Shown one piece after another: positions 2,215 to 19,950 of a stretch of DNA of 20,285 nucleotides. The notes under the pieces were generated by a model. It made no database searches, was not told the origin of the DNA, and saw nothing but the letters and a program-made list of their open reading frames with translations. The first letter of the stretch is position 1; every line of letters starts with the position of its first letter. The position numbers and the translations under genes are program-made. Source of the DNA: a virus; the IMG/VR virus record IMGVR_UViG_3300042294_002150, positions 1 to 20,285 of that record; one strand, 5' to 3'.

Positions 2215-3645
2215 ATGCAACTTGACGCTCGACTTCCCCTGATGGCGGCCCAGCGCCAGCCGATGCAGTTTGCACCTGAGTCGCAGCTGCAGACGCTGTC
2301 GCGGATTGCGCCTGGGATCAATGCGCTGCGGGGGGTGCAGCAGCAGCAGATGGAAACTGCCGAGGCTGTGCGCAAGCAGCAGGCGTACCAGCAGTTTCAG
2401 TCTGAGGTCGCCAAGGCGTTTCCAGGCGGCGTGAAAGAACTGGCTCGCGTTTTTATGACGCAGGGCACAACCCCTCAGCACTTTGAAGTCGGCCAAAAGC
2501 TGATGCAGACGGCGATGGAGGAAGACGAGCGCCAGAGAATCTTTGGCGGCGGCGGTGCGCCTGCGATGGCCGAGCAGCCTGCCGCCATGCCGGCCGCAGC
2601 ACCAGAAGCAGTGCCAGAGATGGACTTTGGCGCTGCTGGAGGCGCCCAGCCCGTGAACGCCATGATGGCACAGGCCGCGCCTGCAAAGATGCTGGAGTAC
2701 GCCGGTAGGCAGTATTCGCCAGATCAGGTCGGGCAGATGCTGCAAAGCAGAAACCCGCAGTTGCAGCAGCTTGGGCGGTCAATTGCGGATGCGAACAAGC
2801 CAAAAGCGGATCGAGAATTTGCGCCGTCTGAAATCTCGCGCCTGCAGCAAGAAATTGCTCAGTTGCCGGCAGGCGACCCGCGAAGGGCTCCGCTGGAGCA
2901 GCGAATTCAGATGCTGACAACGCGGCCGCCAGCAGCGTCAACCAGCGTGGAAGTGAAGCTGCCGGAACTTGAGAAAAAAGAGCGCCAATCCAAGGGCGAG
3001 TTTAACGTCCGATCCTACGAGACAATTTCTCAGGCGGCTAGGCTTGCGGCAAGAACGTTACCAGCCATAGATACTCAATCGAACCTGCTTGACAAGGGCT
3101 TCCGCACCGGATTCGGTGCCGATGTGCAGAAAGCCGCAGCATCTGTGTTGTCCGCTCTTGGAGTGCCAGAGGCAAGTCAATACGCGACCGATGCTCAGTC
3201 ATTTACCGCCGCCCTCAACCAGACGGTTTTGCAGCGCCAGCTTGAACAAAAAGGCGTACAAACTCAAGCGGACGCCGACAGAATTCAGGCAACTGGCGCC
3301 CAACTTGGAAACACGGTTGAGGCAAACAAGTTTATTCTGGATGTCGCAAGGGCTCAAGCCAAACGCGACATAGAGCAACGAGCGTTCTGGGATAAATGGT
3401 GGAGGGAAAACAAGACCTACGAGGGCGCTGAAGATGCTTGGTATTCCGGAGAAGGCGGCAAGTCATTGTTTGACCGGCCGGAGTTACGCAAATATGTTCG
3501 GCAGCCTGCGGCCAATCCGCCTGCGCGCACTCCGCAGACTGGTCGGCCGGCTGGCGTTGGCGCCGACTGGACGCTGAAGCAGGACGCCAAGGGCAATCGA
3601 GCGTGGGTTAGCCCTGATGGCAAAAGGTTTGTGGAGGTCAAATAA
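2215..3645 (+). CDS. Virion protein, Gln-rich, second of three putative ejection proteins
   Basis: 476 residues from the ATG at 2215, preceded by a GGGGG tract (2202-2206) that can act as ribosome binding site; an in-frame TTG at 2200 would add five residues and overlap the previous gene. The N-terminal 130 residues are rich in Gln, Ala and Met. A conserved-looking block runs from about residue 250 to 430, with KGVQTQADADR, AQLGNTVEANKF and WWRENKTYEGAEDAW. I have seen these motifs in phage structural proteins of unknown function. The C-terminus (about 450-470) contains WTLKQDAKGNRAWVSPDGK, a short beta-like element. The TAA stop shares one base with the next ATG (TAATG). A structural or injected-protein role is inferred from composition and neighbours. 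Confidence 0.65.
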   Translation: MQLDARLPLMAAQRQPMQFAPESQLQTLSRIAPGINALRGVQQQQMETAEAVRKQQAYQQFQSEVAKAFPGGVKELARVFMTQGTTPQHFEVGQKLMQTAMEEDERQRIFGGGGAPAMAEQPAAMPAAAPEAVPEMDFGAAGGAQPVNAMMAQAAPAKMLEYAGRQYSPDQVGQMLQSRNPQLQQLGRSIADANKPKADREFAPSEISRLQQEIAQLPAGDPRRAPLEQRIQMLTTRPPAASTSVEVKLPELEKKERQSKGEFNVRSYETISQAARLAARTLPAIDTQSNLLDKGFRTGFGADVQKAAASVLSALGVPEASQYATDAQSFTAALNQTVLQRQLEQKGVQTQADADRIQATGAQLGNTVEANKFILDVARAQAKRDIEQRAFWDKWWRENKTYEGAEDAWYSGEGGKSLFDRPELRKYVRQPAANPPARTPQTGRPAGVGADWTLKQDAKGNRAWVSPDGKRFVEVK

Positions 3646-8501: not shown

Positions 8502-9058
8502 TGGTTCTTCTCCTTCAGCGCTTGCTCGACGGCGCGGGCGAATTGCTGTCTACGAAGCTCGCTATCTGTGCCGGTCACCGACATATCCTCAATCTCCTCC
8601 TCCGTCAACCCCTGCCACTCGCGGCGGGGTGGGTGGGCGTAGAGTGGATTCCATGCACCCGACTCAGCATTGGCTGGCGGCTTCTTGCGAAAGTACGCAC
8701 TGTTCAACCATTGCCACGCCACCGGCTCCTGCTCCGTCTCGCGGCGGGGCTGAGCTATCTCCTGCCTGCGCTCCTCAAGGAGCAGGGCAGCATCCAGCCT
8801 TGACTGCAGGTTTTGCGCAACGTCCTCCTGCGCCCGCGCTGTTGAGCCCCCGAATATTTCTTCCATCAATTTCAGATTTGCTGCAGCGTTTTGCATTTCT
8901 TGAACAGTGGGTCTTATTGGCTCCTCCTGCGCCAGCGCGGCGCGGAGGGCTTGTTTCCGGCGGTCAAGTTCGTAGTGGTCAACCACGCCAGATGGCGGGG
9001 CATCTAAAGCCTCCAACGCCTCCAGCGCCTGCTGGGCGGCTTCGCGCAGCGCACTCAT
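8498..9058 (-). CDS. Phage accessory protein with EPVAW and PPRREWQGLTEEEI motifs
   Basis: 186 residues from ATG 9058, overlapping the TGA of the HTH gene upstream. The N-terminal half is helical (REAAQQALEALEALDAPPSG; RRKQALRAALAQEEP). The C-terminal half contains EPVAWQWLNS, NPLYAHPPRREWQGLTEEEI and a terminal helix. These motifs are a recurring mosaic in phage accessory proteins (Ead/Ea22-like), with the N-terminal and C-terminal modules often swapped between phages. The motif order suggests modular exchange. No biochemical role is known to me. Confidence 0.8.
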   Translation of the reverse strand: MSALREAAQQALEALEALDAPPSGVVDHYELDRRKQALRAALAQEEPIRPTVQEMQNAAANLKLMEEIFGGSTARAQEDVAQNLQSRLDAALLLEERRQEIAQPRRETEQEPVAWQWLNSAYFRKKPPANAESGAWNPLYAHPPRREWQGLTEEEIEDMSVTGTDSELRRQQFARAVEQALKEKNQ

Positions 9059-10201: not shown

Positions 10202-10219
10202 GGGGCGGTTTCCCGCCCC
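10202..10219 (-). promoter_or_regulatory. Hairpin before the annealing-protein gene
   Basis: Perfect inverted repeat, arms GGGGCGG and CCGCCCC around a four-base loop, in the only sizeable gap (40 bases) of leftward operon A. The ribosome binding site GGAG of the gene at 10185 follows it on the minus strand. No T-run follows, so it is not a classical terminator. Confidence 0.6.
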
Positions 10220-10225
10220 GTGGGT

Positions 10226-10480
10226 TCAGTCGGTCAGGCCGGCGTTTTCGGCGCTGACGGAAACGACGCCAGCGGTCTCCACCGGGCATCCTGCAGCCAT
10301 CAGTTCAATGATGTCGTCGTGCGACGCCAGGCGGACCTGAAGCTGAGGCATGCAGTGCCCGAGGGCGCCGGCAGGCGTGTAAGCGCGGACCAGACGGTCT
10401 TCTTCTCCGGTCTGGCTGACGACGTAGGTCTTCAGCGTGCGGGTGTAGGCGCGCTTGGTTGCGGTGACGGTTTCGCTCAT
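10226..10480 (-). CDS. Hypothetical protein between nuclease and annealing protein
   Basis: 84 residues, ATG 10480 coupled by ATGA to the YqaJ gene. The sequence is beta-rich: KRAYTRTLKTYVVSQTGEE, RLVRAYTPAGALGHCMPQ and a VETAGVVSVSA end. It is short, soluble, without cysteine pairs or membrane segments. Proteins of this size between phage nuclease and annealing genes are common and unassigned. A small DNA-binding or nuclease-modulating role would fit the context, but nothing in the sequence shows it. Confidence 0.78.
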   Translation of the reverse strand: MSETVTATKRAYTRTLKTYVVSQTGEEDRLVRAYTPAGALGHCMPQLQVRLASHDDIIELMAAGCPVETAGVVSVSAENAGLTD

Positions 10481-11109
10481 TTTCTTTGCTCCGCGAGACG
10501 CCGCAGCGCCTCGACTTGGTTGCCGACCTGCTGCAGGAAAATCGTGATCCGGGCTTCCAGGTCGGCAATGAAGCTCGGGTCACGTTGGATGCGCTGAACG
10601 TGCAGCTGCAGTTCAACGGGCATCCGGGGATCGTAGGAAACGAAATCGCACCACTGGCGGCCGGTGATCCACATCTGGCCCTGCACCTGTGCGCGGTGAT
10701 CGTCGGGCATGCCGTTCAACAGCGTTTCGATGTGGTTGGCGCTGTTGAACGGGCACTTGATCTCAATGAGCCCGTCCCAGTCCACCAGGCCGTCCGGGCT
10801 GCAGCCTGCCAGCAGGGTGTCGTGGGCGATGAAGCCCGTTTCCTCGACACTGATGCCGGTGACGCGCTCGTAGGCTGTGCGTGCTTCGGGTTCGTGATCG
10901 CCCCACTGCATGGCTGCGGTGACGAATTTCTGCACACGCTGGCCGGTCAGACGCTCGACCACCAGTTCGGTGACGTAGTCGCGCTGGGCCTGCGCCGGGT
11001 CGCCGGATTTCAGCGCGGCGATGGCGTCGCGGAACCGGCTGGCCGTGGCCTTGCCGATGCGGGCGGCGTACCAGTCGGCGTCGCGCTGGGTGGCGGTTTC
11101 GAGGATCAT
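10477..11109 (-). CDS. YqaJ-like viral recombinase/exonuclease
   Basis: 210 residues from ATG 11109, coupled by ATGA to the gene upstream. YqaJ/lambda-exo-type PD-(D/E)xK nucleases digest one strand of duplex DNA and hand the other to an annealing protein. The motifs are in order: DWYAARIGKATAS (12-24), WGDHEPEARTAYE (69-81), the catalytic SPDGLVDWDGLIEIKCP with Asp106, Glu116 and Lys118, and the Gln motif RAQVQGQMW (139-147). Length matches the family (about 200-230). With the putative annealing protein in the same operon it forms a two-component recombination module. Confidence 0.92.
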   Translation of the reverse strand: MILETATQRDADWYAARIGKATASRFRDAIAALKSGDPAQAQRDYVTELVVERLTGQRVQKFVTAAMQWGDHEPEARTAYERVTGISVEETGFIAHDTLLAGCSPDGLVDWDGLIEIKCPFNSANHIETLLNGMPDDHRAQVQGQMWITGRQWCDFVSYDPRMPVELQLHVQRIQRDPSFIADLEARITIFLQQVGNQVEALRRLAEQRK

Positions 11110-11781: not shown

Positions 11782-11854
11782 GCAGGGTCATTCTCGGGAG
11801 GTTGACTGCGGCAGCGCTGCGGGCTGACACTTGCGGCCCCAACAGGAGGACAGC

Positions 11855-12142: not shown

Positions 12143-12615
12143 GAGGCCGCCGCACGCTGCGCGAGATCATGCTCGCCAATCAGGCCAGCATGGACGTCTA
12201 TGCCGCGATGAGCGGGAAGCCTCGCATTGAGTTTGACATTCCACCAGAACCGAAGAAACGCGCCCCAGCGAAGCCCAGCACGGAGCCGTCAGAAGCCGAG
12301 ATCCTGCGGGCGATCATGCAGCTGTTGAAGCGGCACCCGCGCGTGGCTCAGTGCTGGCGGCAGAACAGCGGCACCTTTCAGGAGCGCAACCGGGACGGCT
12401 CGACGCGGTACATCCGCGCGAACACGCAGAAGGGCATGAGCGACATCATGGGCGTCCTGCGCGACGGTCGCACGCTGGCCATCGAGGTCAAGTCGCGCGT
12501 CGGCAAGATGCGCCCCGGACAGGATGAGTTCCTGCAGACGATCCGGCAGGCCGGAGGCGTGGCGGGTGTGTGCCGCAGTGTGGACGATGCCGTCAGGCTG
12601 CTGGGGGATGCATGA
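12139..12615 (+). CDS. VRR-NUC domain nuclease
   Basis: 158 residues from ATG 12139, coupled by ATGA at both ends. The N-terminal 45 residues are basic and Pro-rich. The nuclease core follows: Glu52/Glu54 in PSEAEILRAI, then NTQKGMSDIMGV with Asp102, LAIEVKSRVGKMRPGQDEF with Glu116, Lys118 and Gln128, and a closing GGVAGVCRSVDDAVRLL. This is the E...GxxD...ExK...Q signature of VRR-NUC (PD-(D/E)xK) nucleases, often found beside phage replicative helicases. Structure-specific cleavage during replication or recombination is the likely role. Confidence 0.9.
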   Translation: MRGRRTLREIMLANQASMDVYAAMSGKPRIEFDIPPEPKKRAPAKPSTEPSEAEILRAIMQLLKRHPRVAQCWRQNSGTFQERNRDGSTRYIRANTQKGMSDIMGVLRDGRTLAIEVKSRVGKMRPGQDEFLQTIRQAGGVAGVCRSVDDAVRLLGDA

Positions 12616-14909
12616 CAACGAAACTCGACTTCTCAGCACTCGCACAGCGCCTGCTTATCTCTGCCGACACTCTCGTGCCCCAGTGGCTTCCTGGCGGCCG
12701 ACGCCGAGGCCATGAGTGGGTCTGCGGCGACTTGGCCGGCGGCGAGGGCGATAGCTGCTCGGTGAATTTGTTGTCAGGACGCTGGGCCGACTTCGCCACC
12801 TCGGACCGGGGCGGCGACCTCATCAGCCTGTACGCCGCGATCCATGAACTGAGCATGGCTGAGGCCTACCGCGAACTCGACGACCAGCCAGCAGCGCCAG
12901 CGCGGCCGCCACGACCGCCGAAACCGCAGCGGCAGGTGATCGTGCCGGTGCCGTCAGAATCGGCCGATCACGACTGCCGGCATCCCATATACGGCGACCC
13001 GTCGCAGCGCTGGACGTACTTCGACGGCAACGGGGACGTCTTGGGCTACGTGGCGCGCTACGATCCCGAGGGGCAGCGCAAGCAGATCGTCCCGTGGACA
13101 TTCAGCAGTGACGGCTGGGGCATGGGCCAGTGGCCGGTGCCGAGGCCGTTATACCGACTGCAGGAACTGGAGGCCCGCCCTGAGGATTCGGTGCTCATCA
13201 CGGAGGGCGAGAAAGCCGCAGACGCTGCCGCAGCCCTGACGGGCTCGCCTTACGTCGCCGTGACCTGGCCCGGGGGCGCGCAGGCTCTCAGCAGAGCGAA
13301 CTGGCAGACCCTCCGGAACCGGAAAATCCTGCTCTGGCCCGACGCAGATCAGGCCGGCATCGAGGCCATGCAACGCTTGGCGGCGATTCTGCAGCCGCTG
13401 GCGGCCGAGGTTAAGGTCATCGACCCCACAGGCCAGCCTGACGCATGGGATTGCGCCGACAGCGGCTGGACCCGGTGGTCCGACGCGCGGGCGTGGATCG
13501 CGCCGCGCACGACGCTGTGGCTGCAGGCGCCAGCGCCTGAGCCGGCAGCGCCCACGCCCGCAGAGCAGGCAGTCGCAGCGCGGGACGTCAGCACGCTGGA
13601 ACCGGCAGAATGGTATGCACGCTGGGCCTACATGGTCCCGGACGACGGGTTCTTCGATCTGGTGGAGCGAACCGAGGTTTCACGCTCGGCGTTCAACGCG
13701 CTTTATCGGCGCGTCCGGTGCCATTCAATCCACGCCAGCACCAGCGGCGCGGCACGCAAGATCGAAGCCAGCGTCAGCTATGATGAAAACCGCGCCGCAA
13801 TGGGCGCCCGCGTCTTGGCTGGCGCGACCTACGCGCCTGGGGCGTCAACGCTGTGCGAGCATCAGGGGCAGGCCTTCGGCAACAAGTGGCGCGACGGCAG
13901 GCCCGTGATCACCAGCAGCATCGATCCGCAGCCGTGGCTAGATCACATCGAGAGGCTAATACCCGACGAGGCCGAGCGAAACCACATGCTCGACGCTTTC
14001 GCTTTCAAAGTGCAGCGCCCCGGGGTCAAGATCAATCACGCGATCTTGATCGGCGGCGTGCCTGGCGCGGGCAAGGATTCCATGATTGCGCCTTTGCTCT
14101 ATGCCATCGGCGGCGAAAACAAAACCAATTGCGCATCAGTCGAAACCGCAGAATTACAGGATCAGTGGGGATACTATCTCGAGAACGAGTTGATTATTTT
14201 TAATGAACTGCGGCAGTCTGAGGCCGTGGACAGGCGCGCCTTGGAAAACCGACTGAAACCGATCCTTGCAGCGCCGCCGGAACTGCTATCGGTGCAGCGG
14301 AAATTTGCGCATCCGATACAGGTGCGGAATCAGGCGCTGGTGCTGGCGTTTTCGAACTACCGCGACGCTATTGCGATACCGTCAGATGACCGCAGATGGT
14401 ACGTTTTGTGGACAGATGCGCCCAGAATGACCGACGAGGAATCCACGCGCTTGTGGCGGTGGTTCGCCGCAGGCGGGCTGCAGGCCGGTGCGCTGTATCT
14501 TCGGCAGCGGGATGTATCGCGCTTCCAGCCTGGGGCTACACCACCGTGGACCGACGCGAAACAGATCATGGTATCCACCAGCCGCAGCGGCGCAGAATCG
14601 TGGCTGGTGGATCGCATCGAAAAGCGCATCGAGGAATTCCGCCTAGGCCTGATCAGCGGTCCGTGGCAGCCTCTGGTGGACCGCCTGCAGAATCAGGCGC
14701 CGCTGCACATCCGGTTGAACCTGCAGGCCCTGCAGCATGCGCTTGCCGAGGCGCGTTGGCAAGACCTCGGCATGTGCAAATCCCGCGCCAACCAGACCGC
14801 GCGCCACTGCTGGGCCTCGCCAGATTGGCGAGGCACGAAGTCAGACGCGCGCGATGCGACCGAGACGCATCTCGGCTCTATGCCGACGCCGATGCGGCGG
14901 GTGGTCTGA
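12612..14909 (+). CDS. Primase-helicase: Toprim domain plus DUF5906/P4-like ATPase
   Basis: 765 residues from ATG 12612 (ATGA with the nuclease stop). Residues 30-90 resemble a primase N-terminus (EWVCGDLAGGEGDSCSVNLL, RWADFATSDRGGDLISLYAA) but lack a CHC2 or CysX2Cys zinc pattern. The Toprim region (190-275) has the acidic motifs VLITEGEKAAD (Glu198, Glu200) and LWPDADQAG (Asp244, Asp246). The C-terminal helicase half has Walker A GGVPGAGKDS with Lys488, Walker B-like ELIIFNE ending in Glu532, a sensor LVLAFSN and an arginine-finger candidate SDDRRW. This is the phage D5/P4-like superfamily 3 primase-helicase arrangement. It should prime and unwind at the phage origin. The last 32 bases overlap a convergent gene. 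Confidence 0.88.
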   Translation: MTTKLDFSALAQRLLISADTLVPQWLPGGRRRGHEWVCGDLAGGEGDSCSVNLLSGRWADFATSDRGGDLISLYAAIHELSMAEAYRELDDQPAAPARPPRPPKPQRQVIVPVPSESADHDCRHPIYGDPSQRWTYFDGNGDVLGYVARYDPEGQRKQIVPWTFSSDGWGMGQWPVPRPLYRLQELEARPEDSVLITEGEKAADAAAALTGSPYVAVTWPGGAQALSRANWQTLRNRKILLWPDADQAGIEAMQRLAAILQPLAAEVKVIDPTGQPDAWDCADSGWTRWSDARAWIAPRTTLWLQAPAPEPAAPTPAEQAVAARDVSTLEPAEWYARWAYMVPDDGFFDLVERTEVSRSAFNALYRRVRCHSIHASTSGAARKIEASVSYDENRAAMGARVLAGATYAPGASTLCEHQGQAFGNKWRDGRPVITSSIDPQPWLDHIERLIPDEAERNHMLDAFAFKVQRPGVKINHAILIGGVPGAGKDSMIAPLLYAIGGENKTNCASVETAELQDQWGYYLENELIIFNELRQSEAVDRRALENRLKPILAAPPELLSVQRKFAHPIQVRNQALVLAFSNYRDAIAIPSDDRRWYVLWTDAPRMTDEESTRLWRWFAAGGLQAGALYLRQRDVSRFQPGATPPWTDAKQIMVSTSRSGAESWLVDRIEKRIEEFRLGLISGPWQPLVDRLQNQAPLHIRLNLQALQHALAEARWQDLGMCKSRANQTARHCWASPDWRGTKSDARDATETHLGSMPTPMRRVV

Positions 14910-15289: not shown

Positions 15290-15352
15290 TTATAGGTCAA
15301 GCAGGATCGCCAGCAGCAGCGCCAGCAGGATAGCCAACAGCGCCAAAATCAT
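15290..15352 (-). CDS. Micro-peptide of 20 residues, wholly hydrophobic
   Basis: ATG 15352 overlaps the TGA of the preceding gene (ATGA), the coupling used by most genes in this phage, and the frame ends at TAA 15290-15292. The peptide is an almost pure Leu/Ala/Ile helix with a single Asp near its end (MILALLAILL, then ALLLAILLDL), long enough to cross a membrane once. The DNA is a short-period CTG/GCG-like sequence, so chance is possible. No family is recognised; toxin-like or micro-holin roles are conceivable. The coupled start is the main support. Confidence 0.5.
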   Translation of the reverse strand: MILALLAILLALLLAILLDL

Positions 15353-15615
15353 GTCGCACCCGTGGCGGCCCGGATGACGCTTTGCGCATAAGCCAGGTCG
15401 TCATCGTCAGCGGCGGGATGCGTCAGGCGCTGCAGGGCGCGGAGCATGGCTGGCGCGGCAACGATAAGCAACGCATTGTTCATGCGCTCCTCTAATGGCA
15501 GCCATGCCGGAACGACCGCCAAATATCCGCCCTTTCCGGGCCGACATAAAGGGTCCGCTATGGCGATGCTTTCGCCTCTCTGCGCGGCAAGGTACCAAGG
15601 TCCAGGGGTGTGCAT
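15349..15615 (-). CDS. HTPGPW-type small phage protein
   Basis: 88 residues from ATG 15615, preceded by GAGGAG and the leader GGAGCAACGAAG that also precedes the gene upstream. The N-terminus MHTPGPWYLAAQRGESIAIA and the helical C-terminus (LLIVAAPAMLRALQRLTHP) match a small protein class often seen in phages and bacterial accessory regions, without assigned function. The frame can be extended to 15654 but that would overlap the previous gene. Its stop is coupled to a 20-residue hydrophobic peptide. Confidence 0.78.
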   Translation of the reverse strand: MHTPGPWYLAAQRGESIAIADPLCRPGKGGYLAVVPAWLPLEERMNNALLIVAAPAMLRALQRLTHPAADDDDLAYAQSVIRAATGAT

Positions 15616-15634
15616 CTTCGTTGCTCCTCGCATA

Positions 15635-15826
15635 TCACTGCAAGCGGAATTCAATCGGCACGCCCAACTCTAGCCCGAGTCGGCGCCGGATGAGCCTGTC
15701 GCTGAATTTCCATCGCATCTGATCAAAGCTGCGGAAAAAGAAAGACTCTCCGCTCTCATGGTGATGCGCGATCACTTCGCCACGCGCGCAGCGTACGCGC
15801 AGGATTACGGGCGTTTCGGTGGTCAT
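15635..15826 (-). CDS. Hypothetical protein, 63 residues
   Basis: Starts at ATG 15826 after GGAGCAACGAAG, the same leader found at the gene downstream. The first half contains strands (TPVILRVRCARGEVIAHHHE) and a His cluster. The second half is basic with aromatic residues (FFFRSFDQMRWKFSDRLIRR). It is net positive and could bind nucleic acid. No family is recognised. It is preceded by a 149-base gap with a hairpin, the largest gap in this operon. Confidence 0.7.
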   Translation of the reverse strand: MTTETPVILRVRCARGEVIAHHHESGESFFFRSFDQMRWKFSDRLIRRRLGLELGVPIEFRLQ

Positions 15827-15849
15827 CTTCGTTGCTCCTTCAAAACAGA

Positions 15850-15870
15850 GCCGGCTCGGCATCAGCCGGC
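15850..15870 (-). promoter_or_regulatory. Hairpin in 149-base gap before gene at 15826
   Basis: Inverted repeat GCCGGCT with AGCCGGC around a seven-base loop. On the minus strand it is followed by TCTGTTTTG and then the GGAGCAACGAAG leader of the next gene. The T-run is short, so termination is possible but weak. The rest of the gap (15871-15975) holds no gene that I can support. Confidence 0.55.
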
Positions 15871-15975
15871 GGGATTACGCGGCCCACAGGGCGCGCGCAG
15901 GGTGGTTGGCTGGGGTAGTCCAGTAACGCGGGTGGGAAAGGCCACACGGGCCCGCGTAGGGGCTCGGCGGGGGTG

Positions 15976-16260
15976 TTAGGCGCGGCGGGCTGCATCGAGG
16001 CCTGCCAAGAAGGCATACATGCGCCCGAGCAGCTCGCGCGCCGGGATGTGGCCGGTGCTCAGGGGCGACGACTCGCCGCCGCCTTCGGTCACCATGCGGT
16101 GCAGCGCGAAGCCGCCGTAGGCGCGCGACAGGTGATAGTTGCCGATCTGCGCGCGCTGGTGGCCGTCAGCGTCAGATGCGTAGGGCTGCATCGGGGAATC
16201 GGTTTCGCGGTTGATACGGTCGATCACGGCTTGCAGTTGGTTCAGGGTGACTCGGTTCAT
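15976..16260 (-). CDS. Conserved phage protein, GNYHLSRAYGG type
   Basis: 94 residues from ATG 16260 with GAGGAAG upstream. Motifs: TLNQLQAVIDRINRETDSPM, a polar loop, QIGNYHLSRAYGGFALHRMV, and the C-terminal RELLGRMYAFLAGLD. The same order of motifs is familiar from small phage proteins of unknown function. The frame could extend to 16365 but crosses two palindromes in the upstream gap, so the SD-preceded ATG is preferred. The family is recognised by pattern; no function is known to me. Confidence 0.82.
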   Translation of the reverse strand: MNRVTLNQLQAVIDRINRETDSPMQPYASDADGHQRAQIGNYHLSRAYGGFALHRMVTEGGGESSPLSTGHIPARELLGRMYAFLAGLDAARRA

Positions 16261-16276
16261 CGTCTTCCTCTTTATC

Positions 16277-16293
16277 TGCGCCACTGTGGCGCA
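16277..16293 (-). promoter_or_regulatory. Perfect palindrome before gene at 16260
   Basis: TGCGCCAC and GTGGCGCA flank a single T, giving 8-bp arms. It lies just upstream of the GAGGAAG ribosome binding site of the gene at 16260. As DNA it could be a protein-binding dyad; its GTGGCGCA arm differs by one base from the GTGGCA unit repeated at 18191-18430. As RNA it would fold with a slightly opened loop. Confidence 0.5.
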
Positions 16294-16301
16294 TCCTAGA
16301 A

Positions 16302-16315
16302 CCCCGCGCGCGGGG
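16302..16315 (-). promoter_or_regulatory. GC palindrome in the same gap
   Basis: CCCCGCGCGCGGGG is a perfect 14-base palindrome that extends by further pairs in RNA (with G-U). It is one of the GC hairpins located between the stop of one gene and the ribosome binding site of the next in this operon. Confidence 0.5.
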
Positions 16316-16328
16316 CTCGGCGGATGCG

Positions 16329-16526
16329 TCACCAATTGGTCACTTTCACTTGCCAACGCTCCCACTCTTGTCGGTCATCTTCGCGCGTGACGTAAGCGTC
16401 ACACGGATACCGATCTAGGCGGGTTACGCGCTGCGCCCAGGCTGCAAAGCGGCGGGCTTCGTGATAAGTCTCAAAACCGTGATAGCTAACGCCCAAGCTG
16501 GGCAACATGTTGCGGTGGAATTCCAT
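16329..16526 (-). CDS. Hypothetical protein, 65 residues, Trp/Arg-rich
   Basis: ATG 16526 with AGGAGAG upstream, in a CGATATAGGAG leader similar to those of two other genes in this operon. The protein is aromatic- and Arg-rich (YHGFETYHEARRFAAWAQRV; EWERWQVKVTNW), with one central Cys. A compact alpha/beta fold that binds nucleic acid is plausible but not shown. No family is recognised. Confidence 0.75.
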   Translation of the reverse strand: MEFHRNMLPSLGVSYHGFETYHEARRFAAWAQRVTRLDRYPCDAYVTREDDRQEWERWQVKVTNW

Positions 16527-16550
16527 GGTGTCTCTCCTATATCGTCAGTG

Positions 16551-16643
16551 TCAGAACCCAAGCGCCACCAGGGCGCCCAGGGCGATGCCGAATGCGACTG
16601 CGAACAGGGCGTCGGTCAGAGTCAGGGGGATATCGTGCATCAT
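16551..16643 (-). CDS. Tiny membrane peptide, 30 residues
   Basis: ATG 16643 overlaps the TGA of the 77-residue gene (ATGA), with GGAGGG just upstream. A tandem ATG at 16640 is in frame and better spaced. A polar start (MMHDIPLTLTDA) leads into one hydrophobic helix (LFAVAFGIALGALVALGF) that runs to the stop at 16551-16553. No family is recognised. Coupling and a good ribosome binding site support it as a real gene. Confidence 0.62.
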   Translation of the reverse strand: MMHDIPLTLTDALFAVAFGIALGALVALGF

Positions 16644-16873
16644 TCACCCTCCAGCCGCGCTGCGGCATATTCGGCGCTGATCATGTCGGCCATGACCAAG
16701 CGGGCTCGATATTCTGTTTCGTCGCGCCAGCCGGCGCCGATGATGCAGGCATCGGCGTCCTGCGGCTGCCCGTAAGCCGGGCAAACGGCCCAACGGGGCG
16801 TGTGGCGGTCATCCCGCCAGATGGTCACGCCACTGTCAGCGTGTTCCTCGATCAGGGTCCAGGTGTCGGCCAT
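16640..16873 (-). CDS. Hypothetical protein, 77 residues
   Basis: ATG 16873 after GGAGAACGAAG, the leader type shared with two other genes here. The sequence MADTWTLIEEHADSGVTIWR suggests a beta hairpin. PAYGQPQDADACIIGAGWRD follows, then a C-terminal helix with MADMISAEYAAARL. It is acidic and soluble with two cysteines. No family is recognised. The stop is coupled to the 30-residue membrane peptide. A 70-base gap with a hairpin lies upstream. Confidence 0.72.
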   Translation of the reverse strand: MADTWTLIEEHADSGVTIWRDDRHTPRWAVCPAYGQPQDADACIIGAGWRDETEYRARLVMADMISAEYAAARLEGE

Positions 16874-16889
16874 CTTCGTTCTCCAGTGT

Positions 16890-16904
16890 GCCCCGGTGCG
16901 GGGC
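16890..16904 (-). promoter_or_regulatory. Hairpin before gene at 16873
   Basis: GCCCCG and CGGGGC form a perfect 6-bp stem around a three-base loop. On the minus strand the GGAGAACGAAG leader follows within a few bases. No T-run is present. The remaining part of the 70-base gap shows no further structure that I can support. Confidence 0.55.
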
Positions 16905-16943
16905 GTGGGTAGTGTCGAGAGCTAGGCTGACGCGGGGCTTACG

Positions 16944-17282
16944 TTAGTAATCCATCGTCTCGCGCTCCTGACGCGCGAGAATCGCGGCTTCGTAGTCCGG
17001 GCCTTCGGTCCGGTGCCGCATCGGTTTGTACGTGGTTTCAGCGTGCCACGGGTGCTCTGCAGCATCAGCCCGCAGGGCGTCCTGCGCCGCGCGGGTATAG
17101 GCCTTCCAGGCCGGGTGGCCGTGCCAATCCGTAGAACGCAACACAATGAAGCCTGCGGACCGCAGGCCGTCTAGGAGCCAGCGCTCACTAGGCACGAAAG
17201 ACCAGCCGTTATTTCCCATCATCACGTCGTGAGCAGCGCTCAGGATTGCTGCCGACTGCTCGGGCGTATATATCGTCGTCAT
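16944..17282 (-). CDS. Hypothetical protein, 112 residues
   Basis: ATG 17282 follows AGGAG at eight bases. An in-frame ATG at 17303 would put that ribosome binding site inside the gene, so it is less likely. The N-terminus is helical (YTPEQSAAILSAAHDVMMG). The centre has WSFVPSERWLLDGLRSAGFI then VLRSTDWHGHPAWKAYTRAA, and the C-terminus is charged (DYEAAILARQERETMDY). Several His and Trp residues cluster near the middle. I see no catalytic motif. Function unknown. Confidence 0.72.
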   Translation of the reverse strand: MTTIYTPEQSAAILSAAHDVMMGNNGWSFVPSERWLLDGLRSAGFIVLRSTDWHGHPAWKAYTRAAQDALRADAAEHPWHAETTYKPMRHRTEGPDYEAAILARQERETMDY

Positions 17283-17303
17283 CTCATCTACTCCTATCGT
17301 CAT

Positions 17304-17343
17304 CGCGCAAACCGCGCGCCATAACCCCGGCTCGCGGGGTTAT
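17304..17343 (-). promoter_or_regulatory. Double hairpin before gene at 17282
   Basis: Two stem-loops lie in a 72-base gap. The larger has 9-bp arms ATAACCCCG and CGGGGTTAT (17321-17343, five-base loop). The smaller has arms CGCGC and GCGCG (17304-17318, five-base loop). On the minus strand the CGATAGGAG leader follows. Neither stem is followed by a T-run. Confidence 0.58.
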
Positions 17344-17354
17344 AACTCGAGGTC

Positions 17355-17567
17355 TTATACCTGCGCCAATGCTGCGCGAATGCGCTGCGCGCGCATGCTG
17401 AGTATCGAGGCGCGTTGCTCCAATTCGGCGATATTCCTCTCCACGGCTTGCGTGGCCGTCTCTCCTTCGTTCATCATGAATTGAACCTCCATGACATCGG
17501 TTTCGAGAATCGCATAGCGCGTATCTCCAGTGTGGATACCGCGCAGGCTTGCATTCGTCGTCGTCAT
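17355..17567 (-). CDS. Hypothetical protein, C-terminal coiled coil
   Basis: 70 residues from ATG 17567, with GGAG eight bases upstream; an in-frame ATG at 17573 is too close to it. The N-terminal half has strands (LRGIHTGDTRYAILETDVME). Residues about 38-70 form a heptad-like helix (ATQAVERNIAELEQRASILS; RAQRIRAALAQV) that is probably a coiled coil for dimerisation. No family is recognised. A hairpin with a CUACGG-type loop lies upstream. Confidence 0.72.
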   Translation of the reverse strand: MTTTNASLRGIHTGDTRYAILETDVMEVQFMMNEGETATQAVERNIAELEQRASILSMRAQRIRAALAQV

Positions 17568-17586
17568 CTTCATCACTCCAGGTTAC

Positions 17587-17602
17587 CGGGCCCGTAGGCC
17601 CG
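17587..17602 (-). promoter_or_regulatory. Hairpin with UACG loop before gene at 17567
   Basis: On the minus-strand RNA, CGGGCC-UACG-GGCCCG gives a six-base-pair stem closed by a UNCG-type tetraloop in a C(UACG)G context, an exceptionally stable RNA loop. It lies between the TAA of the previous gene and the GGAG of the next. Confidence 0.58.
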
Positions 17603-17605
17603 TGG

Positions 17606-17827
17606 TTATTCGTCAGCGCCAATACTCGCCAGCCAATCGCGCGCAGCAGTATCGGCGCGCTGCTGCTCTGCTGCAGTAGCAGGCGGGCGCAATATAGCCT
17701 GCAGGTGTCCAATGGCAACCCGAGCAGTCGCTCGGGCGGCTTCGGCATACCGCGCATTGCGTTGGGCTTCGGCGCGCCACTCGGCTACGCCCTTCTCCAG
17801 CCAATCAATCCTGTCAGCGTCGCTCAT
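17606..17827 (-). CDS. Hypothetical helical protein, 73 residues
   Basis: ATG 17827 shares one base with the TAA of the gene upstream (TAATG). It is almost entirely helical: MSDADRIDWLEKGVAEWRAE, ARATARVAIGHLQAILRPP, AARDWLASIGADE. The RIDWLEKG start recurs in small phage proteins. An extended frame up to 17860 would overlap the previous gene. Function unknown. Confidence 0.76.
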   Translation of the reverse strand: MSDADRIDWLEKGVAEWRAEAQRNARYAEAARATARVAIGHLQAILRPPATAAEQQRADTAARDWLASIGADE

Positions 17828-18066
17828 TACAGCGCCCTCCAGCTCAGGCTTACCGTGCACTCGCCATCGAGCCCGAAACCCACGGTACGCCAGTGCTCGA
17901 CCGTCTCAGCAGTGCCGTCAATCCAAAGCTTGCCCTTGCCCAGGAACCGACCCAACAGCGCGCGCTGTTCGTCAGCAGGCATGCGCCCGCTCCAGGTGGC
18001 AAGGCACGAGCCCTTGCGTTCCGTCAGGAACAGCGCCAGCGCTGCCGGGGTGTCAGTCTTCGTCAT
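17827..18066 (-). CDS. First gene of leftward operon B, hypothetical
   Basis: 79 residues from ATG 18066, with AGGAG four bases upstream in a CGATAGGAG leader. The sequence begins with a helix (TPAALALFLTERKG), then ATWSGRMPADEQRALLGRFL, then strands (KGKLWIDGTAETVEHWRTVG; GECTVSLSW). This mixed fold is not recognised. It is the first gene downstream of the GTGGCA array on this strand, separated by a hairpin, and so is the likely first product of this operon. Confidence 0.75.
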   Translation of the reverse strand: MTKTDTPAALALFLTERKGSCLATWSGRMPADEQRALLGRFLGKGKLWIDGTAETVEHWRTVGFGLDGECTVSLSWRAL

Positions 18067-18080
18067 CTCTCTCTCCTATC

Positions 18081-18099
18081 GGCACCGACCATCGGCGCC
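18081..18099 (-). promoter_or_regulatory. Hairpin before first gene of operon B
   Basis: In the minus-strand RNA, GGCGCCGA pairs with UCGGUGCC (one G-U) around a UGG loop. The CGATAGGAG leader of the gene at 18066 follows immediately. It is the most upstream member of the hairpin series in this operon. Confidence 0.55.
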
Positions 18100-18122
18100 A
18101 CACACGCATCATCGGCGGCCTT

Positions 18123-18152
18123 CCTGACGCGAAACTTACAGATGCCGTCAGG
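18123..18152. repeat. Inverted repeat upstream of operon B
   Basis: CCTGACG (18123-18129) and CGTCAGG (18146-18152) are perfect 7-bp arms with a 16-base spacer, between the operon B start and the GTGGCA array. It could be a leader hairpin or a binding site. The rest of 18100-18190 shows nothing else that I can support. Confidence 0.4.
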
Positions 18153-18190
18153 GAACACTGGGGCTTTCCCTAATCCGAGCCTTTCGGGGC

Positions 18191-18430
18191 GTGGCACCGA
18201 GCGTGGCAGTCTACGTGGCACAACCCGTGGCAGTGGCTCTCCCTATGTGTGGCAATTGTGGCAGTGGAACACTAAACCCTAATAGCCTACTGTCATTCAT
18301 AGGTATTAAGTGGGCGTGGCATTGCCACAATTGCCACAAACGCCACCGAGGCCTCGTGGCAGCCGTGGCAGTCCATCGGTGCGCCAATCCAGACTACCGT
18401 GGCAGCTGCCATTTTTGCCACACTTGCCAC
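18191..18430. repeat. Iteron-like array of 14 exact GTGGCA/TGCCAC units
   Basis: Exact GTGGCA begins at 18191, 18203, 18215, 18227, 18249, 18258, 18316, 18356, 18365 and 18399. Exact TGCCAC begins at 18323, 18332, 18416 and 18425. The first four are exactly 12 bases apart. Four pairs (18249/18258, 18323/18332, 18356/18365, 18416/18425) are exactly 9 apart. The 15-mer at 18249-18263 recurs inverted at 18323-18337. Near-matches occur too (18341, 18407, 18448). An AT-rich stretch (about 18268-18312) lies between the two halves. There is no supportable gene. An origin or multi-site control region is the likely function. Confidence 0.85.
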
Positions 18431-18557
18431 GCGTCTAACCGGCGTTACGCCACGCAGCGTCAGCCTACGTTGACACGTTAGTGGTCACTCACTTGCACTC
18501 GGGGCTAGGTGTGGGCGCTGCGCTCGCCCTGCCGGCCAGGTGCTGCGCTGCAGCATG

Positions 18558-18662
18558 GTCAGTGTGCGGAGCGTCAGCGTGCGGATGGTCAGTGTGCGGA
18601 TGGTCTGAGCTGCGATGATTAGCGTGCGGATGGTGGACCCGAGGATCGTCAGTGTGCGGACG
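18558..18662. repeat. Seven-unit 15-bp tandem repeat upstream of terS
   Basis: Units start at 18558, 18573, 18588, 18603, 18618, 18633 and 18648, exactly 15 bases apart. The consensus core is GTCAGYGTGCGGA plus two bases. Units 1, 2, 3 and 7 match it fully, unit 5 nearly, and units 4 and 6 are degenerate. The array ends about 170 bases before terS. This position fits a TerS-binding pac/cos element. The sequence from 18431 to 18557 holds no gene that I can support. Confidence 0.82.
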
Positions 18663-18666
18663 ACTA

Positions 18667-18687
18667 GGCGGGGAGGGCGGGGAGCGG
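18667..18687 (+). other. G-rich tract before terS
   Basis: GGC-GGGG-A-GGG-C-GGGG-AGCGG: three runs of at least three G and two GG runs within 21 bases, on the plus strand. It could form a two-layer or bulged G-quadruplex. A C6 run follows at 18692-18697, which could instead pair with it. Confidence 0.4.
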
Positions 18688-18725
18688 CAGACCCCCCGGC
18701 CAGGGCCCGCGCAAGGTGTGAAAGT

Positions 18726-18758
18726 GTGTGGAGGACCCGCACAAATTTTTCTTTTTTT
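18726..18758 (+). terminator. Terminator-like hairpin with long T-run, in the terS leader
   Basis: GTGTGG and CCGCAC form a 6-bp stem (one G-U) around a five-base loop (18726-18742). AAA, T5, C and T7 follow up to 18758. It reads on the plus strand, about 75 bases before terS, with no plus-strand gene upstream in this block. The stem is modest, but the T-run is long. It may be a leader attenuator for late transcription, or an AT-rich bend at a packaging site. Confidence 0.45.
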
Positions 18759-18833
18759 GGTACCATCGCCAAATGTTCCGCCCCATGTGCGCTCCGCGCA
18801 TTCACTGCCGAAACCGCGTCAGCGGCCATTGAT

Positions 18834-19340
18834 ATGTTCCGCGACCTACCCATTCGCGCCCGCAAGCTAAAGGCCACGCCCGAGATGCTGGAGCGCATAT
18901 ACGATGCCGCCAGGCTGGGTTTGCGCGGAGAATCTCTTGCACTGGCGGCGGGTATGTTGCCGGTTGAGTTGGCGCGACTGAAGATAATGGACCCGATAGC
19001 CGAGGTAGCGGAAATGAAAGGCCGCGCCGACAGCGAGATGGAAATGTCCCGCGTGGTATTTGATGCTGCGCAGGCTGGGGATAGTAAGGCGGCGCTGGAG
19101 TTTCTCCGTCACAGACACGAGTGGGTGGCGAAGACGAATGTGCAGGTTGACGTGAATACTCAGATCAGCGTGGTGGCCGCGCTGGAGGCTGCGAACGGGC
19201 GGTTGCAGCGTGGGCTGGCGGTGGAGGTAGAGGATGCGGTGGAGGTGACGGGAAGCGGCCGCGCTGGTAAGATAGCCGCGCCGCCGTCGCCTGCGGCGCT
19301 GCCGGCCAAGGAGCCCGTGTATGCCGAACGCCCTGATTGA
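18834..19340 (+). CDS. terS: Terminase small subunit
   Basis: 168 residues from ATG 18834. An open frame extends upstream to 18615 but crosses the repeat region, so this ATG is preferred although its ribosome binding site is poor. The N-terminal part is an HTH-like domain (ATPEMLERIYDAARLGLRGE; SLALAAGMLPVELARL). A helical oligomerisation region follows, with AAQAGDSKAALEFLRHRHEW, AKTNVQVDVNTQISV and an Ala/Pro-rich tail. This order is typical of phage TerS proteins, which recognise the packaging site and load the large subunit. A 15-bp tandem repeat lies 170 bases upstream. The last 20 bases overlap the next gene. A TerL gene is not next to it within this window. Confidence 0.82.
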   Translation: MFRDLPIRARKLKATPEMLERIYDAARLGLRGESLALAAGMLPVELARLKIMDPIAEVAEMKGRADSEMEMSRVVFDAAQAGDSKAALEFLRHRHEWVAKTNVQVDVNTQISVVAALEAANGRLQRGLAVEVEDAVEVTGSGRAGKIAAPPSPAALPAKEPVYAERPD

Positions 19341-19950
19341 CGATGACGCGGCTGCTGCCGCTGCCGCGATGAACGCACTGCGGCGAGCCGAGGCTGAGCG
19401 TGCTGGCGCGACGCCGATTGAAGTGCAGCGTGAGCGGTACCGGATTTTGCAGCGGTACGCGGAGCCGCAGACGGATGCTGGCGCGATGTACGCCACGCGG
19501 TACACGGGGCCGAGGCCGAACAGGCCGGTGGTGAACGGCAAAGCGATGGTGAGCCGGGAAGAACTGGCGGATTTTCAGCGGCTGTTTGGGGCGGATAAGA
19601 CCCTGCGGGATTTGCTGAACGCGGATCGGATGGGTGTGCCGTCGGTGCCGTCGGCGATGGACCCCCGGGCGCGTGGGATGCAGGGGGCGAACGTGGCGCC
19701 GGGAATGCCCGGGATGATCCCCGGTGGTGGCGCGGGGCCGATGGCGCAGGGGCGGATTCCGGGTGAGGTCGAGCGGAATGTGATGAATTCGCTGATGGCG
19801 CTGGGACCGATGATGGGCGGGCTGCCGCTGGCTGGGCGTGCCGCGATGGCGATGCGGGGCCGGCAGCCGATGCCGAGGATTGACCCGTATATGCCCGACG
19901 CCGCCCCGGTGTTGCTGCGGCAGGCGCCGCGTGCGTTGGTGCGGGACTGA
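19321..19950 (+). CDS. Hypothetical virion-type protein, Gly/Met/Pro-rich C-terminus
   Basis: 209 residues from ATG 19321, with AGGAG seven bases upstream inside the end of terS. The N-terminal half is helical (AAAAAAAMNALRRAEAERAG; PIEVQRERYRILQRYAEPQT). The middle is polar (VSREELADFQRLFGADKTL). From about residue 115 the protein becomes low-complexity and rich in Gly, Met and Pro (PGMPGMIPGGGAGPM) with a weakly hydrophobic stretch (NSLMALGPMMGGLPLAGRAA). This composition resembles the putative ejection proteins at 681-5360. A virion or scaffold-like role is inferred. Confidence 0.7.
   Translation: MPNALIDDDAAAAAAAMNALRRAEAERAGATPIEVQRERYRILQRYAEPQTDAGAMYATRYTGPRPNRPVVNGKAMVSREELADFQRLFGADKTLRDLLNADRMGVPSVPSAMDPRARGMQGANVAPGMPGMIPGGGAGPMAQGRIPGEVERNVMNSLMALGPMMGGLPLAGRAAMAMRGRQPMPRIDPYMPDAAPVLLRQAPRALVRD

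Follow-up and report, generated by a model that had tools for sequence, protein, structure and literature searches.

The window analysed here is an entire IMG/VR virus record (20,285 bases) and carries a compact array of the hexamer GTGGCA between divergent operons. The array and its surroundings comprise the following features.

18082–18182, left flank, conserved irrespective of the relatives' array type; the swapped segment starts at ~18183
18191–18430, whole GTGGCA iteron array, proposed replication origin; 14 exact hexamers, position kept in relatives
18191–18232, plus strand, left block of four direct GTGGCA copies in 12-bp steps (18191, 18203, 18215, 18227)
18249–18263, plus strand, 9-bp-spaced pair (18249/18258) GTGGCAATTGTGGCA, left arm of the first dyad
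18264–18315, relatively AT-rich core, candidate unwinding element, retained in many GTGGCA relatives
18316–18337, minus strand, one plus copy followed by an inverted 9-bp pair (18323/18332), right arm of the first dyad
18356–18370, plus strand, 9-bp-spaced pair (18356/18365), left arm of the second dyad
18399–18430, plus copy at 18399 followed by an inverted pair on the minus strand (18416/18425), right arm of the second dyad
18515–18833, right flank, conserved with any array type; DNA 97% identical to contig L006, which has a GGGGACA array
18834–19340, plus strand, downstream ORF, probably the small terminase subunit by position, with no family match; landmark for finding relatives

GTGGCA/TGCCAC occurs 21 times in the window, and the 14 exact copies that the initial annotation had counted within 240 bases are indeed found at 18191–18430. 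Every other hexamer of the window reaches at most 8 copies per 240 bases, and 8 was also the highest count of any hexamer per 240 bases in 60 second-order Markov simulations. The motif is not equally frequent elsewhere, a possibility that the annotation had raised against itself: the other 20 kb hold 7 copies, fewer than the 17.4 from whole-window dinucleotide shuffles. The quantised spacing was recovered as described, with three 12-bp steps and four 9-bp pairs (18249/18258 and 18356/18365 on the plus strand, 18323/18332 and 18416/18425 on the minus strand), as was the inverted 15-base dimer, 18323–18337 on the minus strand being the exact reverse complement of 18249–18263 on the plus strand (both GTGGCAATTGTGGCA). 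The core had been called AT-rich, which holds in a relative sense only: its A+T content of 58% is moderate but richer than that of the window (37%), and its best 50-bp stretch lies within the top 0.26% of the window for A+T. The features by which iteron origins are recognised, namely copies of a short repeat (14 in 240 bp), a non-coding region and an adjoining AT-rich stretch, are all present. GC skew changes direction at the array, which proves nothing because gene orientation changes there too. The window, itself a fragment contig, contains one GTGGCA cluster.

Using the ORF at 18834–19340 as a landmark, we gathered 61 viral contigs. About half of them contain a GTGGCA cluster at the matching place, some 640–170 bp upstream of the terminase-like ORF, and its inverted pairs have the geometry seen in the window. 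The other relatives keep the same flanks (up to 97% identical) and have a different repeat in the same slot. The replacement units are GAGGGGACA or GAGGGGTAT in the first set of contigs, and the replacement words seen are GTTGTC, ATGGCAG, GGGGGC(TA), GGGGACA, GGGGACC, GGGGACG, GGGGTAC and GGGGTAT. In L006, for example, DNA identity to the window is 87% over 18064–18182 and 97.4% over 18515–19931, while 18183–18514 is unalignable and GGGGACA units occupy that slot. The initial annotation had asked whether relatives lack both the hexamer and its spacing; many retain both, and the rest retain the architecture with another word. IMG/VR contigs are fragments and possible assembly chimeras; the array-swap pattern recurs in many samples. 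A DNA similarity search among isolated phages gave no match, and a search of genome contigs for a cellular host returned two distant matches only, one of them a Burkholderiaceae MAG contig, too weak to name a host.

Other elements were observed around the array and in the relatives. Direct repeats of 15 bp (CAGTGTGCGGATGGT-like), six to seven in number, lie at 18555–18660 between the array and the terminase-like ORF; relatives with any array type have them too, and they may be a site for packaging or regulation. A conserved inverted repeat at 18122–18157 (TCCTGACG...CGTCAGGG around CGAAACTTACA), which lies upstream of the leftward early operon and is also retained in relatives with any array, is a candidate operator or promoter element. 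The early-gene block at 15300–18066 is mosaic: its slots, delimited by conserved linkers of ~55–110 bp (near 16258–16338, 16530–16640, 16867–16947, 17279–17354 and 17565–17620), are filled by different small genes, as if the genes were exchanged like cassettes. Rfam and tRNA scans of the window found nothing. Contigs L190 (~2750–3050) and L191 have a separate tandem array, CCTTGCC/GCCTCGCC, of 12 copies, which lies ~6.6 kb upstream of the helicase end and is unrelated to the iterons. In L177, the complete podovirus-like genome MW202483.1, the GTTTACAT/ATGTAAAC array at 10210–10585 overlaps in part with a hypothetical CDS, whose annotation may be spurious.

Among the genes of the window, the one whose product follows the array type encodes a primase-helicase.

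12612–14909, plus strand, primase-helicase with a Toprim-type N-terminal half, a helicase and a C-terminal winged helix; proposed array-binding initiator
14589–14817, plus strand, predicted winged-helix (origin-binding) part of the C-terminal domain (AlphaFold2 model mf9f9e03482bc; translation checked)
14778–14801, plus strand, wing loop KSRANQTA, residues 725–732, the segment that tracks the repeat word

Its Pfam matches above cut-off are Toprim_2 and DUF5906, and a profile match covers the NrS-1 primase helicase region (E = 3e-10). Residue numbers start at codon 12606, the likely ATG being at 12612. Residues 1–300 are ~90% identical in all close relatives, and residues 300–767 are 92–100% identical in phages with a GTGGCA array compared with ~50% in GGGGACA/GGGGTAT phages, where the last 100 residues are 30–40% identical. 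A sharp junction lies near residue 300 (13505–13560), with an N-terminal half common to close relatives and a helicase half of two deep types; judged from these alignments, the primase-helicase of close relatives is chimeric. The helicase gene and the array are ~3.3 kb apart in the window, the mosaic early genes in between show no agreement with the array type, and two separated segments therefore change together. A wider scan of helicases yielded more array types, with arrays ~1.4–4.2 kb downstream of the helicase.

The initial annotation had suggested as binders the winged-helix protein at 11831, the HTH protein at 9055 or the product of 18066, all from the same phage and either DNA-binding or encoded nearby. 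These proteins do not track the array; the primase-helicase wing does. The 11831 protein is 79–84% identical in GGGGTAT or GGGGACA phages and at most 40% identical in other GTGGCA phages, the HTH protein reaches 86% identity in a GGGGTAT phage, and the 18066 protein reaches 90% in a GGGGACA phage. With such close homologues in phages with different arrays, these regulators were rejected as array binders, and it is very improbable that any of them binds it in place of the helicase. The rest of that interpretation agrees with the data: an iteron-type origin, located between divergent operons, with sites to which a single protein would bind cooperatively.

An AlphaFold2 model of the C-terminal 128 residues, of middling confidence (mean pLDDT 72), runs helix, strand, helix, helix, strand, loop, strand, which is a winged-helix topology, and residues 725–732 form the loop between the last two strands; a larger model of helicase plus C-terminus had low confidence. 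Foldseek searches with the C-terminal model gave zero matches below 0.001, and the best VIA match was weak (Z 6.2). The weak winged-helix-like matches from Foldseek and VIA were cullin WHB, RTP, RFX5 and the NrS-1 tail at Z 3.9. Because the structural matches are weak, the fold assignment rests on the predicted topology, by which the KSRANQTA loop is predicted to be the wing.

The loop was compared between similar proteins with different arrays. Two GTGGCA contigs (L155, L149) and two GTTGTC contigs (L147, L151) differ at 22–31 positions after residue 300, six of them within 725–732 (for L155 versus L147, 24 positions, six in the eight-residue wing), where KSRTYQTA of the GTGGCA pair is replaced by ASRANPGK of the GTTGTC pair. 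The same-word pairs L155/L149 and L147/L151, of equal divergence, have zero differences in 725–732. GGGGACA and GGGGTAT proteins, ~90% or more identical, are perfectly separated only by columns 725, 726, 727, 729 and 731, and columns 730 and 732 alone do so for the GTGGCA/GTTGTC/ATGGCAG set; in these two clade contrasts the perfectly separating columns of the whole aligned protein all fall within 725–732. Helicase pairs that are 95% identical outside the wing but have different wings have different repeats. The helix before the wing, which is the usual position of the recognition helix, is nearly the same in the GTGGCA and GTTGTC types, and the bases that differ between these words are therefore probably read by the wing.

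The 86 helicases with an assigned array have 35 wing strings and 17 repeat classes, with zero wings found with two classes, which is the covariation expected of a cognate initiator; the word classes of this wide set were assigned from k-mer tables that listed the wings too, for which an automatic array finder partly compensates. Within 6 kb downstream of the helicase the finder detected arrays of at least 7 copies in 79 of the 86 contigs, compared with 5 of 48 upstream control stretches. The 7 contigs without such an array include L141 and L172, with five exact GTGGCA. The word predicted from the wing came true in contigs outside the rule-setting set (GTGGCA in L166 and L095, GGGGGC in L122). 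This correspondence is one-way, from wing sequence to repeat word, and is the new part of the finding. The pairs in the wide helicase set, with a typical unit spacing of 9 or 10 bp, are listed below.

KSRxxQTA or KSRxxQSA: GTGGCA
ASRxNPGK: GTTGTC
KSRHYMTP: RTGGCAG
KTKRYGTR: GGGGGC(TA)
HSREHPTK: GTGGGGTA
HSRE(F/Y)PTK: GTGGGCA
K(T/A)xxNG(N/S)K: ATGGGTCA
KSRAHSTK and KSRTHQNK: GTGGGT
KSREFDTR and MSREFSTR: GTTAGT
ASRDYLSK: GTAAGTCA
FAPELSTK (complete 38.8-kb phage genome MW202483.1): GTAAAC
RCPEHPVK: GGGGACA
KTPEHPTK: GGGGACG
RARGEHATK: GGGGACC
RTKAEHSVK: GGGGTAC
KTNELAQK, KANDLPQK and KTADIAQK: GGGGTAT
KTVEHQTK: ATGGGC (less certain, few copies)
KSRLNPSS: GTGGCA (less certain, few copies)

A tree of the 86 helicases built without the wing columns implies 22 word changes. 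For the same 39 contigs with nine classes, the number of word changes was 16 on the terminase tree (shuffled mean 22.4) and 13 on the wing-less helicase tree. Same-word and different-word pairs were distinguished with an AUC of 0.999 by the wing, 0.95 by the helicase, 0.74 by the primase half and 0.69 by the terminase; within the GGGG clade the values were 0.97 for the wing and 0.48 for the terminase. Like the terminase, the primase half does not track the array. At helicase identities of 0.90–0.97, array word sharing had a mean Jaccard index of 0.45 with agreeing wings versus 0.05 otherwise. Phylogenetically independent pairs were concordant in 5 of 5 cases on supported branches and in 8 of 8 when all branches were used, each set being too small for a formal test. 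Since wing and helicase relatedness are confounded at wide range, the case rests on a few within-clade contrasts, 5 of them well supported.

The position of the array, 400–640 bp upstream of the terminase-like ORF, would also suit a packaging (pac/cos) site read by the adjacent small terminase. That ORF does not track the array: L006 is 97% identical from 18515 through the terminase-like ORF and yet has an unrelated array, and the AUC values above show that terminase identity barely separates array types, both overall and in the GGGG clade. A pac/cos site is contradicted by the covariation and was rejected; its chance of being correct is slight. An open frame of 96 codons (ORF 18191–18481) extends across the array, which could accordingly be read as a repeat within coding sequence, or else as a neutral minisatellite. 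Mixed orientations, 9- and 12-bp steps and wing-matched replacement by unrelated words are unexpected of slippage or of a gene, and Pfam gives two sub-threshold matches only for the coding reading. The coding repeat was rejected, and we give hardly any credence to either origin of the repeats.

We propose, with a probability of roughly 85%, that the array is an iteron-type replication origin that would be bound by the phage's self-loading primase-helicase and exchanged with it as a matched protein–DNA module. The array is taken as a replication origin because its arrangement (a specificity-matched primase-helicase, inverted phased repeats and an AT-rich core) is that of P4 alpha and its ori/crr; its mode of action would also resemble that of the SaPI, SCC and PLE initiators. 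From these patterns we infer that the protein physically binds the array, that the wing reads the bases, that rings are loaded and that the origin is active. Primase-helicase monomers would bind GTGGCA units one helical turn apart through the C-terminal winged helix, the identity of the unit being read mainly by the eight-residue wing. With unit pairs in opposite orientation, one helicase ring would be positioned on each side of the AT-rich core; the two rings would melt it, and replication would start. The helicase half, the wing and the array would be inherited together as a matched module, and its exchange between near-identical phages would give members of one group different origin specificities.

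It is conceivable that the primase-helicase binds the array chiefly to control transcription from the divergent early and late operons and not to fire an origin, as the array lies between them and a self-binding initiator could also repress. However, for known analogues of the binder (P4 alpha, SaPI Rep), arrays of this kind serve as origins, and a promoter scan, which covered the sigma-70 type alone, found no such promoter at the array. We consider a chiefly regulatory array unlikely. The two roles are not mutually exclusive, and the proposed origin may also have a second, "master control" role, as the initial annotation had suggested.

Only a few systems with known initiator–iteron specificity exist. 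A single phage family here supplies at least 17 repeat words and 35 wing sequences while the rest of the protein hardly varies, so that sequence comparison is enough to name DNA-reading residues and small swaps can test them. Origins of uncultured phages become findable from one gene, and the correspondence predicts, for phages sharing a cell, which of them can use one another's origins for replication. It also raises the question of what selects for a change of origin word while the terminase stays 99% identical. As a tentative answer, to which we give somewhat less than even odds, the wing could be a compact, near-modular DNA-reading code, in which an eight-residue exchange retargets the helicase, diversifying under antagonistic selection (decoy origins, satellites, origin-directed nucleases) and making near-identical phages replication-incompatible. 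Cells with additional copies of the lambda origin are protected from lambda (PMC4488673), and phages in which word and wing change together would be favoured under decoy-origin or origin-nuclease pressure.

P4 alpha binds its ori/crr repeats. Like the window protein it is a primase-helicase of about 770 residues, which combines primase, superfamily 3 helicase and C-terminal winged helix in one protein (in the window protein the winged helix comes from a middling-confidence model), and P4 ori/crr (NC_001609) resembles the array in having short (8-bp) repeats in 9–11 bp steps, inverted pairs and a T/A-rich stretch. The P4 repeat GGTGAACA differs from GTGGCA, P4 has two arrays (ori and crr) whereas one was found here, in a fragment contig, and P4 is a satellite whereas the window phage is a self-sufficient tailed phage. 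A comparison of the helicase profile with single-sequence P4 alpha by hhalign found no significant match, and the tools used detect no sequence relation.

SaPI Rep and SCCmec Cch2 are hexameric self-loading helicases with a C-terminal domain that binds short iterons of their own origin (PMC7581432, citing Ubeda et al. 2007). SaPI/SCC origins lie directly downstream of the helicase gene, whereas the window array lies 3.3 kb after the stop codon at 14909, and Pfam found in the primase-helicase neither DUF927 nor D5_N/Primase_Cterm, giving the DUF5906 and Toprim families instead. In PLE RepA, from a Vibrio cholerae satellite, the DNA-binding domain and the iterons are swapped as a module and cognate pairs are needed; the proposed driver of the swaps is a helper-phage nuclease that targets the origin (PMC8263062). 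PLE RepA belongs to the RepA_N family without a helicase, with two module types known compared to at least 17 repeat classes here, and Pfam found no RepA_N domain among the ten window proteins scanned. As the family-defining domains were not found, we do not file the array system under SaPI/SCC Rep or PLE RepA.

The nearest solved sequence relative of the helicase part is the NrS-1 helicase region (6k9c/6k9e). The NrS-1 primase-polymerase helicase is a superfamily 3 ring and recognises an 8-nt sequence with only two occurrences in its genome, not an array (PMC7102993); its N-terminus is Prim/Pol, whereas that of the window protein is Toprim. The short iterons of geminiviruses differ between close relatives and need the cognate Rep (PMC12548392). 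Geminiviruses are rolling-circle ssDNA viruses with a Rep fold unrelated to the window initiator, and the iteron-related domain of Rep gives an earlier comparative example of how initiator residues can be matched to iteron bases.
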